64,000 nucleotides of DNA from Spirochaetaceae bacterium. GTDB taxonomy: Bacteria; Spirochaetota; Leptospiria; Leptospirales; Leptonemataceae. Positions 3,873 through 12,825 of this stretch are shown piece by piece. Numbering within the stretch: position 1 is the stretch's first letter; the number at the start of each line of letters is the position of its first letter. The notes beneath the pieces are model-generated. The model saw nothing but the letters and a program-made list of their open reading frames with translations. It was not told the DNA's origin and searched no databases. The translations under genes and the position numbers were made by a program. The DNA is taken from positions 66,044-130,043 of the forward strand of contig PCBI01000006.1 of NCBI GenBank assembly GCA_002730875.1. The letters are read 5' to 3'.

Positions 3873-5453
3873 TCAACGAAAAAGAGAACGAATCACGCCC
3901 ATTTCACGGTTCTTCATCAGAAGAGCGATGGCCAGATAGATCAAGCCGCCCAGGCCAATAGCGCCAAAAACCACGGGCCACATGGAACGACTTTCCAGGC
4001 TTGCACGAATTCGTTCTGGCTCATTCAGTTGCCAGAAGTCCAGACCCCCCAGAAAGAAAAGGGCCAGAGCCACTACACCGGCCAGAGCGATCCATAGCGG
4101 CAGCAAGGCCTGAATGCGAGCGAATAGATCCGACCAGGGGATGCGACTGATTTTTCGACGCAGAAAGAACAACAGGGCCATGCAATTCAGAAACGATGTG
4201 GTGGTGGTGCTCAAGGCCAGAGCCCCGTGGGCCAGGTACGGAATCAGAATCAGGTTCAAGCTCAGATTCACTGCCACAGTGCCGGCCAGGATGCGCACCG
4301 GGGTTTTTGTATCCTGGTAGGCGAAAAAGCTGGAGGTCAGGATTCGATTCATACTGTAGAAAGGCACGCCAATGCAATAGAACTGAAGCGCATGCCAGGT
4401 AGTTAGCGTGGAATCCACAGTCCACTGGCCGCCACTGAAGAGCAGATGGATGATGAAGGGACCGAGTAGATAGAGTCCCAGGCCTGCCGGCACCGTAAGA
4501 AACAGGGAAAAACTAATGGCGCTTACCAACTCCTGACCGTTGTCGTCGCTTCCGTCGGATTTCATGGCAGCCACGAGAGCGGGCAAAATGGCCGTAGATA
4601 GAGCGACTCCAATGATCCCAGTGGGTAATTGAATCAAGCGATGGGCGAATCGAAGTCCTGGAATGGCGCCCGTATCGTCGATCAAGTAGCTTGCCAGAAC
4701 AATGTCCATTAGCTGATTAATATGAAACAGACTGGCTCCCAGCACCGCCGGCGCCATGAGCGTCAGAACCTTTCGCAGCGCCGGATGCTTCCAGGCCAGC
4801 TTGAGCCGGGGCCACCAGCCATGAAAATACACGTAGCCGGCCTGCATTAAGATTTGCAGCAGTCCGCCGCACAGCACAATCCAGGCCAGAGCTGAAGCGT
4901 TCCCTTCCTGGCTCAATTCCAGAGGTTTCAGAATCAAAAAGCCAGTGATAAACACCAGGTTAAGCAATATCGGCGAAAGCGCGGGGAAAGAAAAATGCTG
5001 ATGGGTTTGCGCGATTCCGCTGAGGATCGCCGTAAGGCTGGCCGACAGGATAAATCCAAAAAGGACCTGGCTCAGATAGATTTCCAGACCGGCCTGCGCC
5101 GGATCCTGATCCACATACAGCGGGATAAAGAACGGAAAGATCAAGATCGCCGTGGCCACCAGACCGGTAAGAAATAGCGCCAGCACTGCCAGAACGACAC
5201 CGGCCGCTTCTTTGCCTTTCTCGTCGCTGTCCTTGAGCGCTTCGCCGTAAATGGGAATGAAAGCCTGGGAGAGTACGCCTTCGGCCAGCAGGTTCCGAAG
5301 CATATTCGGAAGCATGTACGCGATTTCCCAGGCGGCGGCCACGGCTCCGGTACCAAAGAAGGTAGCCTGGAAATGATCCCGGACCAATCCCAGGACCCGG
5401 GAAATCATTGTAAAAAAGGAAAGTTTAAGCGAGTTGCGGGCCGTACGGCTCAT
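3873..5453 (-). CDS. murJ: Lipid II flippase MurJ
   Basis: A 526-residue polytopic membrane protein with the MurJ/MviN signature at the N-terminus (SRVLGLVRDHFQATFFG, then AWEIAYMLPNMLRNLLAEG and SQAFIPIY). It flips the peptidoglycan precursor lipid II to the periplasmic side of the inner membrane. Around 14 hydrophobic segments can be traced, the usual number, and the length is normal. The start overlaps the stop of the upstream STAS gene by four bases (ATGA). Co-transcription with a STAS/zinc-ribbon protein and a sensor-like membrane protein is the unusual feature and suggests regulated wall synthesis, but this is inference from position. Confidence 0.95.
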   Translation of the reverse strand: MSRTARNSLKLSFFTMISRVLGLVRDHFQATFFGTGAVAAAWEIAYMLPNMLRNLLAEGVLSQAFIPIYGEALKDSDEKGKEAAGVVLAVLALFLTGLVATAILIFPFFIPLYVDQDPAQAGLEIYLSQVLFGFILSASLTAILSGIAQTHQHFSFPALSPILLNLVFITGFLILKPLELSQEGNASALAWIVLCGGLLQILMQAGYVYFHGWWPRLKLAWKHPALRKVLTLMAPAVLGASLFHINQLMDIVLASYLIDDTGAIPGLRFAHRLIQLPTGIIGVALSTAILPALVAAMKSDGSDDNGQELVSAISFSLFLTVPAGLGLYLLGPFIIHLLFSGGQWTVDSTLTTWHALQFYCIGVPFYSMNRILTSSFFAYQDTKTPVRILAGTVAVNLSLNLILIPYLAHGALALSTTTTSFLNCMALLFFLRRKISRIPWSDLFARIQALLPLWIALAGVVALALFFLGGLDFWQLNEPERIRASLESRSMWPVVFGAIGLGGLIYLAIALLMKNREMGVIRSLFR

Positions 5454-6598
5454 GAAGTGGCAAGTTTTTCGTAGTAGGATGTAGATCCATCCGTTTCCAC
5501 TTCAAATTCGATTTTGCAGGCCGGGCAAAGATGACGCCCGGTATGGTAGATTCGTAGCTTGCTGCCGCACTGTTCGCACTGGATGATTCGGTTGATTTCG
5601 GCGGTCGCGGCCCCCTTTCCGGAACCCCGGCCGGTAGTCATCCGGGCGGACGTAGCGCTCCTGGCCGAGTGGCCCCTGGAAATAGAGCCGCCAACAGAAC
5701 CGGCCGTCCCGGGCAAGGCCCCGGCCGATGCTTGATCCTGTAGAGAAGCCACAGGCACCTCACCTGGACCGGCTGAACCTGGCCTGGCTTCGGCCGCCAA
5801 TCGTCCCCCGACCTGGCCGCCGGAGCTTCCCGCAGCGGTGGATGGGCTGGTGGCTACAGTCTGGTTGGCCGGGCCGCTCGGGCGGTTGCCTTCCGAGAAG
5901 TGAAACTGTCGGTCTTCAGCGCTACGAACTCGACCACCGGACGATCGGAGCCGGCGCTCCTGCTCGAACTCCTCCTTCAAGGAGTGCTCGGTCCGTTGCA
6001 GATCTTCCATGGTCTTGCCCAGACTTTTCAGGTGCCTGGTAAGTCCGTTCAAGGTTTCGGAAAGTCGACCTATGGATTCTCCCATATAGTAGGCATCCGT
6101 GGAATGACCTCCGGATGACTGAACGCGACTGGCAGAACCGGCAGAATCTCCGGCAATAGGGGATTGGGCTGATCCAGGCGAAAGGCTTGCTCCCGCACCC
6201 GCCGGCTGGCCAAACGGCGAACCGGTGGGTGGCAGACTCTGGGCTCCGGAATCGAAGGATTGCTGTTCAACGACGTACAGCGGTTGTCTGGATTCCGGCA
6301 TGGCAGACCGCATCTGCTCTTCGGAGTCGTACACCGGGATGTGTTTGGATATGCCCAGAAAATCCAGCATCATGGCCACTTCTTGCGATGGCTTTAGAAT
6401 ACCCAGAGCCAGGTTACGCTCCTGAGCCTTCTGGCTGATCCGCAGAAAGGAAGCTACGCCGGCGCTGGTCATGTACTTGAGCCCGGAAAAATCCAGACCA
6501 ATAGGCTCGCGATGCTCACGCAGCAGTTCAGTCAGACTTCTTTCGAAGCGATGCCCTGTGCTGGAATCCAGAACTCCTCTGATGGCGAGAATCTTCAT
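5450..6598 (-). CDS. STAS-domain protein with C-terminal zinc ribbon
   Basis: A 382-residue soluble protein in three parts. Residues 1-110 form a STAS domain of the anti-sigma-factor-antagonist type: LDFSGLKYMTSAGVASFL carries the Ser-Ala-Gly at the site that is phosphorylated in SpoIIAA-like proteins. Residues about 115-330 are a Ser/Gly/Ala/Pro-rich linker with a short coiled-coil-like stretch near 175-215 (SLGKTMEDLQRTEHSLKEEF). The C-terminus (about 337-370) has two CxxC pairs, CEQCG and CPAC, which form a zinc ribbon. It lies between the sensor-like gene (ATGA-type overlap) and murJ (4-base overlap). Expected role: phospho-controlled partner switching. The partner kinase is not in the window, and the link to MurJ is inference. 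Confidence 0.8.
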   Translation of the reverse strand: MKILAIRGVLDSSTGHRFERSLTELLREHREPIGLDFSGLKYMTSAGVASFLRISQKAQERNLALGILKPSQEVAMMLDFLGISKHIPVYDSEEQMRSAMPESRQPLYVVEQQSFDSGAQSLPPTGSPFGQPAGAGASLSPGSAQSPIAGDSAGSASRVQSSGGHSTDAYYMGESIGRLSETLNGLTRHLKSLGKTMEDLQRTEHSLKEEFEQERRLRSSGGRVRSAEDRQFHFSEGNRPSGPANQTVATSPSTAAGSSGGQVGGRLAAEARPGSAGPGEVPVASLQDQASAGALPGTAGSVGGSISRGHSARSATSARMTTGRGSGKGAATAEINRIIQCEQCGSKLRIYHTGRHLCPACKIEFEVETDGSTSYYEKLATS

Positions 6599-7755
6599 TC
6601 ACGTTCTCCGTTCTTCAAAGGAATGGCATCCAGAATGTCTCGATCGATGACTTTGGGCGCTTCGTAAACCGGGTCTTCCATGGTATGACTTCTACCGGCC
6701 GGATTACCTGTCGGAGCCCCGGATGACATGGCAGGATTGTGACCGGCCTGAGCCTGCGAAAAGCTACCGGGCCGGGCCCCCGGGTTTTGTCCGGGAAAGG
6801 CGGGCCAGCTTTCCGTTTCTTGCGACTGAAAAGAAGGTACGCCCCCGGGTCCGGACGCAAACGCTGAATTTCCTTGCATGGGCAACGACTCGGCCGGGCT
6901 TTCGAATGACTCGGTGAAGCCCGCCTCTTCCAGGTCCCGGCTTCGATCGTCGAAAACCTCATCGCTTCCCCAGGTGGAACCATCCGGATTCAGATCCGCG
7001 GCCCCGCTGGCGGGGATGCCTGCATCCCTTTTCGAGCCCCCAAAAATGGTAAGGGCAAGTAAGATACTCAGAATAAGGCTCAAGGCAGAGTATGCGATTA
7101 CGCTGTAAGTGATTGTGCGAAGCACGTTCTGCCAGTATAGATTAAGGATATTGTCGATTCCATCATTGCGCAGATGAACATGCAGACTACCGGAAGGCAC
7201 GTCGGCATCGGGCAGATACACGGCGTACGCCACATGGAACCGATTGGCTCGCAGATCCGGGATATACTTTTCCAGCAACGGAATCATTGATGCCAGTGGC
7301 GCATCCGGTCGGTAACTCGTGCGGCCGGTGACCTGAAGGTCCAGGGGATACCGGCGGGCATTCAGGAGTACATCTTTGTATTTCTCTTCTGTGTAGGTGA
7401 TGCCCGAGTCTTTGGCCACTTTGGCCACATCGTTATGGGCCATTACCCGGCCCTCCAGATCAATCAGGAAGGTTTCTTCTACTACAAAACCCCGGGCTGA
7501 TTCCTGGGAATCCTGAACCAGCAGTTTCATGGTTTCACAGAGGGCCACCAGGGCTTCCGGGCTGGTGGCTTCGGAGGCCTGTGCTCCCAGGGCCACGGTA
7601 AGCTGGCTGGCGCGGCTTCGGGCTTGCTTTTGCACCTCGCCTACCATCTCCGCTCCATCGCGGTAGATGAAATACGCGGCAGGAATCATTCCCACCAGGA
7701 GCATGATAGAAATGAGGAACGATCCCCCAAGCCATTTGAACATTCGGGCAGCCAT
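6595..7755 (-). CDS. Membrane sensor-like protein with extracytoplasmic domain and disordered tail
   Basis: A protein of about 386 residues with one N-terminal TM segment (FLISIMLLVGMIPAAYFIY), an extracytoplasmic domain of about 190 residues, a second TM segment (YSVIAYSALSLILSILLALT) and a cytoplasmic tail of about 130 residues rich in Gly, Pro, Ser and Gln. The extracytoplasmic part has Cache/PAS-like phrases (ETFLIDLEGRVMAHNDVAK) seen in small-molecule sensors. There is no HAMP, kinase, MCP or GGDEF output. The tail ends in a more conserved-looking KVIDRDILDAIPLKN. The reading frame is open to 7845, but the ATG at 7755 gives a normal start before the TM segment and avoids overlap with the divergent hisZ. 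Signal and output are unknown; the STAS protein encoded next is a candidate partner. Confidence 0.65.
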   Translation of the reverse strand: MAARMFKWLGGSFLISIMLLVGMIPAAYFIYRDGAEMVGEVQKQARSRASQLTVALGAQASEATSPEALVALCETMKLLVQDSQESARGFVVEETFLIDLEGRVMAHNDVAKVAKDSGITYTEEKYKDVLLNARRYPLDLQVTGRTSYRPDAPLASMIPLLEKYIPDLRANRFHVAYAVYLPDADVPSGSLHVHLRNDGIDNILNLYWQNVLRTITYSVIAYSALSLILSILLALTIFGGSKRDAGIPASGAADLNPDGSTWGSDEVFDDRSRDLEEAGFTESFESPAESLPMQGNSAFASGPGGVPSFQSQETESWPAFPGQNPGARPGSFSQAQAGHNPAMSSGAPTGNPAGRSHTMEDPVYEAPKVIDRDILDAIPLKNGERE

Positions 7756-7843: not shown

Positions 7844-8806
7844 ATGGAAAAATTCCGAAGCTGGATTCCGCACGGTTTCGACTACCTTTCTCCCGAAGAA
7901 ATCAAGATTCTTCGCCGTTTACAGGCGCAAAGCCGGGAATGTTTTGAAAAGGAAGGTTTCAACGAGATCATTCCCCCTGGCATAGATTATGCCGGGGCAT
8001 TCGCTATCACCGGCCGAAACGCCGTTCCAGACCGTATTTTTGAATTCCGCGACTCCGCCGGTGAGATTCTGGCTGTTCGATCCGATCTAACCGTCCAGGT
8101 CATCAAGGCCGTGGCCTCGGGAAGGGCCGGCACCACAATCCCGGCGGATCTCTATTATGTTCAGCCTGTATTTGTAGAAGCGGGCAAAGGTAGCGGGGCC
8201 TCCCGGGAAATCTATCAGGCTGGAATCGAAATGATAGGAAGTCCCAATCAGATCTCCTATATAGAAAGGGTCCAGCGACTGGTGACTCTGGCCCGCACGG
8301 TTCTGGGAACTCTGGCCGAAGGGGCCCGTTTCCTGTACGGCGATGCGCGATTTCTGGAAATACTCTTTAATGGAATTGATCCCATGCTACGGCGGGAGCT
8401 ATCGGAGGCCTTCTATAAAAAGGACCGTCGTAAGATCCAGGAGCTTTGCAGCAAAGGCGATGTGTCCTCTGATCGTGCCCTGATTCTTTCCGAAATGCCG
8501 CATATTTTTGGCGGACCGGAATGTCTGGATGAACTGGAAACCCTTTGCGCTTCGGAGCCAGGCCTGCTATTGCTTCTGAAAGAGGCCCGTCAAATTCCAG
8601 GAGTGGTGTTTGACTTCAGTCTTGTGCGGGAACTGAGCTACTACGATGGCCCGGTCATCGAAGCCTTTCTGCCCGGTCATACAGACCGAATTCTATCCGG
8701 TGGCTTTTATGATGGACTGGCCCGGGAATTCTCGGGAAAATCGCTGCCGGCAGCGGGTTTCGCAGTCCATCTTTCGGAACTGGTGCGCGCCAGGCAGGCG
8801 GCTTGA
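7844..8806 (+). CDS. hisZ: ATP phosphoribosyltransferase regulatory subunit HisZ
   Basis: A 320-residue relative of the histidyl-tRNA synthetase catalytic core, which is the form taken by HisZ. HisZ joins the short form of HisG to catalyse and regulate the first step of histidine synthesis. Visible class II motifs are VRSDLTVQVIKAV (motif 2 region), REIYQAGIEMIG, and GGFYDGLAREF in place of the synthetase motif GGRYDxL. The anticodon-binding domain of a true HisRS is absent, and the length fits HisZ. No hisG is in the window; hisI lies at 49.9 kb. It diverges from the sensor-like gene. Confidence 0.88.
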   Translation: MEKFRSWIPHGFDYLSPEEIKILRRLQAQSRECFEKEGFNEIIPPGIDYAGAFAITGRNAVPDRIFEFRDSAGEILAVRSDLTVQVIKAVASGRAGTTIPADLYYVQPVFVEAGKGSGASREIYQAGIEMIGSPNQISYIERVQRLVTLARTVLGTLAEGARFLYGDARFLEILFNGIDPMLRRELSEAFYKKDRRKIQELCSKGDVSSDRALILSEMPHIFGGPECLDELETLCASEPGLLLLLKEARQIPGVVFDFSLVRELSYYDGPVIEAFLPGHTDRILSGGFYDGLAREFSGKSLPAAGFAVHLSELVRARQAA

Positions 8807-11250: not shown

Positions 11251-12825
11251 TCAGTTTTCGTTCTTTTCCAGTGTGGCCGCCAGGTGCTGCTTCTCCATTT
11301 CCAGGGACTCAACCACGGAACGAATGGCCGAAACGGCCCCGGACAGCTCTTCCAGTTCTTTGCGCAGAGTGGCCAGGTCGCCGTCCGCTCTTCGCGTCTG
11401 TTCGGCCTGACTTTCGGTGCGTTCTTTCATCTGACCGGCCACATTCTGAATCTCCAGAGTGGCCTTCTGTATGTCCGAAAAGAATCCCTGTTGCTTCGAA
11501 ATCAGACCGTGGATTTCCTGGGTTCGCGTCTGCATATGCTCGGAGCGTTCATGGATCTTCTGCATGGTGCTTCCCATGTTTCGCACAAGACCCGCCCCTT
11601 CCATGGTTTGATCATGACTCCGGCGAATTAGATTTTCGATTTCGCTTGCATGGCGACTGGACATCTCGGCCAGTTTACCCACTTCAGAAGCGACAACTGA
11701 AAAGCCCCTTCCCTCTTCGCCGGCCCGGGCCGCTTCAATGGCGGCGTTCAGGGCCAGCAGGTTGGTCCTTTCCGCAATCTCGTTAATGATATCCAGAATT
11801 TCAAAGATCCGATTGGAGCTTTCCTGAATGCCTTCCATTCCTGTGAGAGTCTTCTGAAGCGTGCCTTCCCCTTCCGTCAAAAGGTCCATGATTTGTTGCG
11901 AGCCGGTTAGATTCATTTCGCTGGAACGTGTGATGTCTTCCATTCGGGCGCGAAACTTGAGCACTAGATCCGTATTGGACTGACAGAGTTGATCCTGTCT
12001 TGAAGCGCCGGCGGCCATTTCTTGCATCTCGCCGCTTACAGTTCGAATCAGATCTCCGGTATGCTCCAGGGCATCCTTCTGATGCACTCCGGTGGCATCC
12101 AGGGTCTGTACGCTTAGCTTTAATTCCTGGATTTGATCTCCCAGACTCTGAACCACTGAGCGGGCGCTTCGCAGAAGCTCGGAAAGCAGCTTGAAGCGTT
12201 GCTGGGATTCCTCCCTTTCTTCGTTTACTTTGAAGATCATCTTTCGAATCATTCGCGTTGCCATAGACAGCGCCACGGAAAGACCCAGCATAAAGATGGA
12301 AGCAATGATGAGATCCACCGGGCTGAGAAAGTCGGGCTGCTGACTGCCTTTCTTTATGCTCCAGGCAACGGGAGTTACTTCAACAATCAGAAAATGCAGA
12401 CCGGCGTTTACCGCCACAGCCAGAAGGCCGGTGACCGTAACCAACCGCGGAGAAAAGCGCAACACCGAAGCGGCAATCAATACATAAAACAGTCCGTGTC
12501 GGGTTGCATTTCTTACAGCCCATTCATGGCCATCTTCTACGAAAACATGACCCAGAAGCACAACAAACAATCCCAGCATTTCGCCCACGGCAAATGCATA
12601 CTTCATGAACGGTTTGTATTTATGGTACCGAATCGCCAGATAGGAAAGGACGAACACCAGCGAATAGATCCCGATGCCTGCCAGATAGAAAAGCGTCTGC
12701 TGGAGCCTGGCGCTTCCGGTGAAGAATCCAACAGCTGTACCGGCCAGAAAAATGACGATTAGAAGTATGCGAAGACGGCCGGTAAGCCTCTCTCCGTCCA
12801 TCTCAAAGGCAAGCTGACGGTTCAT
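11251..12825 (-). CDS. Methyl-accepting chemotaxis protein, multi-TM type without HAMP
   Basis: A 524-residue chemoreceptor. The N-terminal 210 residues contain about six TM helices with only short loops, so there is no periplasmic ligand domain. There is no recognisable HAMP domain. The signalling hairpin is clear: its tip reads [19 protein letters not shown] followed by [16 protein letters not shown], which contacts CheA/CheW. Flanking Glu/Gln-rich helices would carry methylation sites. No C-terminal CheR-tethering pentapeptide is seen (it ends LEKNEN). The multi-TM input suggests sensing of a membrane or energy state, which is inference. It lies 11 bases after the permease gene and may be co-transcribed with it. 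Confidence 0.9.

Follow-up and report, generated by a model that had tools for sequence, protein, structure and literature searches.

The nearest described relatives of the system reported here are partner switches of the PP2C/STAS kind, RsbU-RsbV and SpoIIE-SpoIIAA; docking between PP2C and STAS proteins is documented (PMC11418112). Our subject is a pair of adjoining genes in a 64,000-nucleotide stretch of a Spirochaetaceae bacterium assembly (GCA_002730875.1, contig PCBI01000006.1, positions 66,044 to 130,043 of the forward strand; hereafter the window), which encode a membrane sensor and a protein that joins a STAS domain to a zinc ribbon (STAS-ZR). The pair is like the described switches in that STAS-ZR has a serine at the switch position and that relatives of the sensor are PP2C receptors with an adjoining STAS gene; it differs from them in that the sensor lacks a phosphatase domain and has a conserved motif at the end of its tail, no kinase gene adjoins the pair, and a zinc ribbon forms part of the STAS protein. 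A second likeness is to chemoreceptors, in which the C-terminal peptide NWETF tethers CheR: there too a short conserved peptide ends a flexible receptor tail, and in the sensor such a peptide would hold a cytosolic partner, although the sensor motif is a different one, the sensor has no MCP signalling domain, and docking is in its case what we infer. Third, the predicted fold of the sensor's extracytoplasmic domain is common to the extracellular Cache (PAS-like) domains of WalK, DctB and CitA, which are histidine kinases, whereas the sensor has no kinase domain detectable with Pfam.

The sensor and STAS-ZR are a real, conserved signalling pair; in its most likely mechanism, a Cache receptor that has no enzyme domain captures and releases STAS-ZR. 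A search with the single sensor sequence found the sensor in 36 of 61 relatives, and a profile search of the class, which covered 48 genomes, found it in 42; among the 30 of good quality it was found in 29, and the remaining one (G014) encodes a membrane protein ending near ILKAISLG, followed by STAS-ZR and then murJ. Of 296 genomes from across the phylum, 95 gave a profile match; the matches include proteins of the phosphatase type and a single histidine kinase (locus L229, so assigned by Pfam), which was dropped. Loci were fetched from the 95 genomes except G046, G146 and G289, and wherever a tail-type locus had a readable sensor end (81 loci), the same strand encodes STAS-ZR downstream of the sensor, the STAS-ZR profile match beginning between −27 and +46 nt relative to the sensor stop. 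The zinc ribbon is visible in 79 of these 81 STAS-ZR proteins, the contigs of the other two (L110, L114) ending inside STAS-ZR. Recurrence at 81 loci outside the window's genome shows that the pairing is not due to chance, and it is this pair, and not a trio with murJ, that is the conserved unit.

Five sensors of the sister family (Leptospiraceae) match NCBIfam NF047550 (LIC_12071 family protein) over nearly its full length, to the motif end, with 252–317 bits; none of the five reaches the equivalog cut-off of 350 bits, and the window sensor scores 25.5 bits over positions 43–232 only. The sister-family matches suggest that a Leptospira version of the sensor probably exists, in a family whose name carries no function. 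In PMC3953431 LIC12071 is tabulated as a hypothetical protein (2.08-fold) among upregulated genes of Leptospira interrogans. What could pass for a hypothetical protein beside murJ is in this way recast as a signalling unit that can be tested, spread over much of the phylum and related to the functionally unassigned Leptospira LIC_12071 family.

Pfam gave no match to the sensor at E≤1, its Cache models and kinase domains included, and a sequence search for relatives in the PDB was unconvincing (best E-value 0.028). The first 250 residues were modelled with modest confidence as a transmembrane helix, a Cache domain and a second transmembrane helix (mean pLDDT 70.4, pTM 0.60; 6-row alignment). 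By VIA-align the model scored high against DctB (Z 13.2), the WalK extracellular domain (Z 12.7, rmsd 3.0 over 133 residues) and CitA (Z 12.4), all topped by an integrative model of WalK (Z 14.2), and on these matches we assign the predicted extracytoplasmic domain to the Cache fold. The cytoplasmic tail that follows is flexible, as judged from its composition, and ends in a motif whose form varies with lineage: the window's family has ILDAIPLE and similar ends, the sister family VLDAIYLD, other members of the class ILDAILVE, and sensors from beyond the class IRDAIPVKKR or IKEAIPVKE. An expression written for the motif matched 79 of 81 sensors, as against 9 of 683 other open reading frames (ORFs) in the same loci, and the two sensors that it missed end in sequences resembling the same motif (SLDAVYLD and TIKDAIPEE); the strict form, I/V-x-[DE]AIP, was found in 48/81 sensors and 0/683 other ORFs. 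Left out of these counts were L116 and L125, which have open ends, and L216, which is of the phosphatase type. With a 15-position motif profile searched over 13 genomes, the sensor was the best or only match in 12 and the sole match in the window's genome, although the profile is weak and most sensors of the 13 genomes had gone into it. That a flexible tail has such a motif at its tip, and that one constant partner is encoded beside it, suggests that the tail docks STAS-ZR.

In the model of STAS-ZR, ~230 mostly disordered residues, of which 104–187 and 222–331 have pLDDT <50, link the STAS domain to the ribbon. The Pfam zinc-ribbon models match it below their cut-offs, and both CxxC knuckles are present. 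The analysis confirms what a sequence-only reading had observed at the locus, namely that a Cache-like sensor and a STAS/zinc-ribbon protein with long disordered linkers overlap each other and then murJ by four bases each, that the sensor, in which we find two transmembrane helices and no catalytic domain, lacks a known output domain, and that the STAS site is of the phosphorylatable type. In our alignment the last of these is Ser45, at the usual position of the STAS phospho-acceptor, which we take to be the position phosphorylated in SpoIIAA and RsbV. The switch serine is kept in 76 of 82 tail-linked STAS-ZR proteins (that of the window included), in 8/8 that are linked to a phosphatase-type sensor and in 34/35 orphans. 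It is replaced by G or N in six tail-linked proteins, five of which form one clade (L100–L104) while the sixth (L114) is separate, and all six retain the sensor, its C-terminal motif and the gene pairing. This retention argues that the role of the motif does not need phosphorylation of the serine, and so favours a phosphorylation-independent role, such as the docking of STAS-ZR, over one that consists solely in recruiting a phosphatase. If so, these natural variants separate docking from phosphorylation.

The serine and the STAS domain also fit classical sigma/anti-sigma switching, in which STAS-ZR would be an anti-anti-sigma factor aimed at a kinase or anti-sigma protein, with the sensor doing no more than adjusting its level. 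Of the relatives scanned, three pass the 53.45-bit cut-off of the NCBIfam anti-sigma-antagonist model TIGR00377 (L280 with 60.5, L191 with 55.4 and L129 with 55.7 bits), and the window's genome has HATPase_c_2 frames of 150–158 aa. The window STAS-ZR, however, falls below that cut-off at 47.4 bits, as do L225 (49.7), L153 (43.2) and L119 (45.1), serine-less members have been retained, and no kinase gene or, by Pfam among the window ORFs, sigma-factor gene adjoins the pair; we consider this explanation improbable.

Twelve loci matched by the sensor profile, from other spirochaete families, encode proteins in which Pfam finds HAMP and SpoIIE/PP2C domains after the Cache domain (L125, L216, L225–L228, L230–L233, L305 and L308), and in six of these (L230, L231, L232, L233, L305 and L308) Pfam sCache_3_2 passes its cut-off. 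Two are cut by contig ends (L125, L227); in nine of the ten uncut loci a STAS gene lies 18–455 nt downstream, and six of these nine STAS genes have a visible ribbon (L216, L225, L230, L231, L232 and L305), L228 being cut. The docking tail of the window sensor, which is probably for STAS-ZR, would stand where these relatives have a phosphatase, and the pair would be a variant of partner switching, a reading to which we give about an even chance. The STAS-ZR tree groups the six phosphatase-linked rows in one clade (100/98); when orphan rows are included, a single branch sets the tail-linked rows to one side (SH-aLRT 93; few columns, unrooted). This topology suggests that tail and phosphatase were exchanged about once, in one direction or the other. 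Were docking to take the part of the phosphatase, partner switching would gain a mode of reception with no enzyme in the receptor. The broader proposal, that enzyme-free receptors for partner switching form a widespread class, pass on the signal by capturing and releasing STAS-ZR stoichiometrically instead of by dephosphorylation, and are able to survive loss of the phospho-serine, is plausible but in our estimate somewhat short of an even chance.

The six proteins that pass sCache_3_2 are ~1135–1181 aa long and carry Cache, HAMP and PP2C domains C-terminally, with a STAS gene following each; most show weak Ig-like or BNR-like matches in their N-terminal parts. In L216 a 60-aa ORF (L216:1834-2016), Flp-type pilin-like by eye, lies between the phosphatase-type sensor and STAS-ZR.

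The mechanism that we propose makes the pair a partner-switching unit of the PP2C/STAS kind, dedicated to sensing the envelope. In it the Cache domain would read a periplasmic signal; the cytoplasmic side is free of enzymes, consisting of a flexible tail that ends in the short, putative docking motif (ILDAIPL). This motif would most likely bind the co-encoded STAS-ZR and hold it at the membrane or release it according to the signal, and this capture and release would determine the amount of STAS-ZR available to its target. Among the many PP2C phosphatases and HATPase_c_2 kinases that the cell encodes separately, some would probably set the phosphorylation of Ser45: the window's genome (G000) has 39 SpoIIE/PP2C domains in 4.9 Mb and 26 HATPase_c_2 matches, 16 of them above the cut-off, so that enzymes able to act in trans are present. 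The sequence-only reading had proposed to look elsewhere for a PP2C phosphatase or serine kinase, and relatives of the sensor carry such a phosphatase. In 14 other genomes of the order the number of SpoIIE domains ranges from 12 to 48 (at least that many in some, about 46 being scored).

These same enzymes could be what the motif recruits. Under this alternative a separate PP2C phosphatase (or a kinase) would dock on the tail, making a two-piece version of the Cache-HAMP-PP2C receptor with STAS-ZR as its substrate, and the position of PP2C in the relatives, the SpoIIE domains in all 57 genomes checked (4 to 48 each, most of the genomes being tail-type) and the lack of the motif in phosphatase-type proteins speak for it. 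It does not fit as well that the motif is kept where the STAS serine has been lost, or that the motif protein stands beside STAS-ZR in all 81 loci while a PP2C gene is found in none of the conserved neighbour clusters scanned around the pair, and we hold it to be unlikely, if the most serious of the rivals to docking of STAS-ZR.

A number of observations count against the capture of STAS-ZR by the tail. The motif could instead recruit a phosphatase, kinase or protease, and by Pfam of the window neighbours no kinase or phosphatase gene adjoins the pair (the PP2C gene seen in relatives is likewise lacking beside the window STAS-ZR). The motif expression was written after all tails had been viewed, and its count measures conservation and is no blind test; with the motif profile, rival frames score near the sensor in G005 (0.746 versus 1.38) and G024 (0.114 versus 0.48), and the sensor motif of G031 was missed. 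Among the phosphatase-type loci, L226 has no adjoining STAS gene and no ribbon is visible in the STAS frames of L233 or L308; proteins of this type lack the motif, the C-terminus of L216 (EEIPVARKV) no more than resembling it and failing the expression. Covariation of Arg/Lys in the ribbon with the motif, compared between tail-linked and other STAS-ZR, amounted to a single independent contrast and was dropped. Finally, STAS-ZR is not confined to the pair. A profile built from phosphatase-linked STAS-ZR matched in 207 of 392 genomes of the phylum at E≤1e-20 (tail-linked members included), and the 39 loci fetched from these matches comprised 35 orphans, from other families and with no adjoining sensor-profile match, two phosphatase-linked cases and two loci (L282, L295) in which the STAS-ZR profile found no STAS-ZR frame; the orphans indicate that STAS-ZR also works without this sensor.

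The orphan proteins are ~180–200 aa long and spread across many spirochaete families (L280–L318; e.g., L281:5023-5574 and L280:5366-5911), including a 1.1-Mb single-contig genome, and in one orphan locus (L311) a PP2C frame lies 2 kb away. In the window's order there is also a short second STAS-plus-ribbon paralogue with a degenerate STAS part (L219:2739-3191 and L220:2681-3178, with a match at G000:C10:91465-91596).

In the window the genes run sensor, STAS-ZR, murJ, with 4-bp overlaps at both junctions (6595–6598 and 5450–5453). The sequence-only reading had taken this arrangement for an uncharacterised signalling module that controls lipid II flipping. The first part of that description is supported, the pair being widespread in the phylum and relatives of the sensor carrying PP2C; the second is not. 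For a module that senses the envelope and regulates MurJ by contact speak the overlapping genes, the presence of murJ next to the pair in 14 of the 18 pair-bearing genomes of the window's family (the window and 13 of 17 other fetched loci) and directly after it in three of seven genomes of the sister family, and the place of WalK, a kinase tied to cell-wall metabolism, among the top fold matches of the sensor, though the fold is a common one. G018, where the end of STAS-ZR and murJ share a contig end, is probably a fifteenth case. In G009, however, 5.4 kb separate murJ from the pair, G016 has murJ on a different contig, G011 apparently has a different next gene, and four sister-family genomes lack the adjacency; moreover, none of 57 loci outside the window's order (16 from other families of the class, 41 from beyond it) showed murJ next to the pair, L182, L189 and L201 among them having <400 nt downstream, too short to tell. 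The three-gene neighbourhood is thus conserved inside the window's order, though not throughout it, and the pair is intact where murJ is not visible. We therefore rejected MurJ as a conserved partner and regard control of MurJ by contact as very improbable. The adjacency most readily reflects shared expression or the history of the operon, murJ probably being co-transcribed with the pair and not its target.

Clustering of neighbouring genes, with Pfam searches of cluster representatives and single neighbours, was also used to look for other conserved operon partners, and these were rejected in turn: the genes found are lineage-specific, among them NUDIX, rhodanese, LpoB, class-I adenylate cyclase, QueF, AAA and CheA, and the largest cluster covers 26 loci. 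This cluster is an LpoB-like (peptidoglycan-synthase activator) gene that lies divergently upstream of the pair in several families (representative L190:2054-2623). A gene of ~910 aa in opposite orientation is found near the pair in 16 loci (L127, L173–L176, L198, L202, L203, L205–L211 and L215); Pfam assigns the representative, from L205, to the class-I adenylate cyclases.

No description of the pair, the STAS-ribbon protein or the motif was found among the literature matches listed, a search of titles and abstract starts with subscription papers mostly outside it. PMC8638967 mentions a putative anti-sigma factor antagonist, which is unrelated to this pair or not placed against it.

Table 1. 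Coordinates in the window of the sensor/STAS-ZR pair, its parts and the adjoining genes.
Feature	Position	Strand	Details and basis
Sensor gene	6595..7755	-	386 aa; first transmembrane helix, predicted Cache-fold extracytoplasmic domain, second transmembrane helix, flexible cytoplasmic tail, C-terminal DAIP-type motif
Extracytoplasmic region, predicted Cache fold, ~residues 36-200	7156..7650	-	structure model; range aligned to WalK, DctB and CitA
Cache-type motif GRVMAHND	7429..7452	-	conserved in sensor alignments; consensus G-x-x-x-A-H-[SN]-D
Second transmembrane helix, approximate	7051..7128	-	inside modelled helix 199-239; limits set by eye
C-terminal docking-type motif ILDAIPL	6616..6636	-	conserved at the end of the sensor tail
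STAS-ZR gene	5450..6598	-	382 aa
STAS domain, residues 1-103	6290..6598	-	Pfam PF01740, 51.1 bits (gathering cut-off 22.6); model
Ser45, candidate phospho-acceptor	6464..6466	-	alignment; usual STAS phospho-acceptor position
Predicted helices or possible coiled coil in linker, residues 176-219	5942..6073	-	model, low confidence
C-terminal zinc ribbon, residues 332-367	5498..5605	-	CxxC-x13-CxxC; modelled strands, pLDDT blocks 84-86
murJ	3873..5453	-	526 aa; Pfam MurJ, 289.8 bits
Divergent neighbour, HisS/HisZ-type	7844..8806	+	Pfam tRNA-synt_His

The sensor may start farther upstream than listed, its reading frame being open to an ATG at 7845. The divergent neighbour is presumably hisZ, a name that we assign from the protein length, and a divergent gene of similar size adjoins the pair in 16 loci, forming one neighbour cluster. 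Elsewhere in the window, positions 11251–12825 encode an MCP-signal protein; towards its N-terminus there seem to be several hydrophobic segments and not a periplasmic domain.

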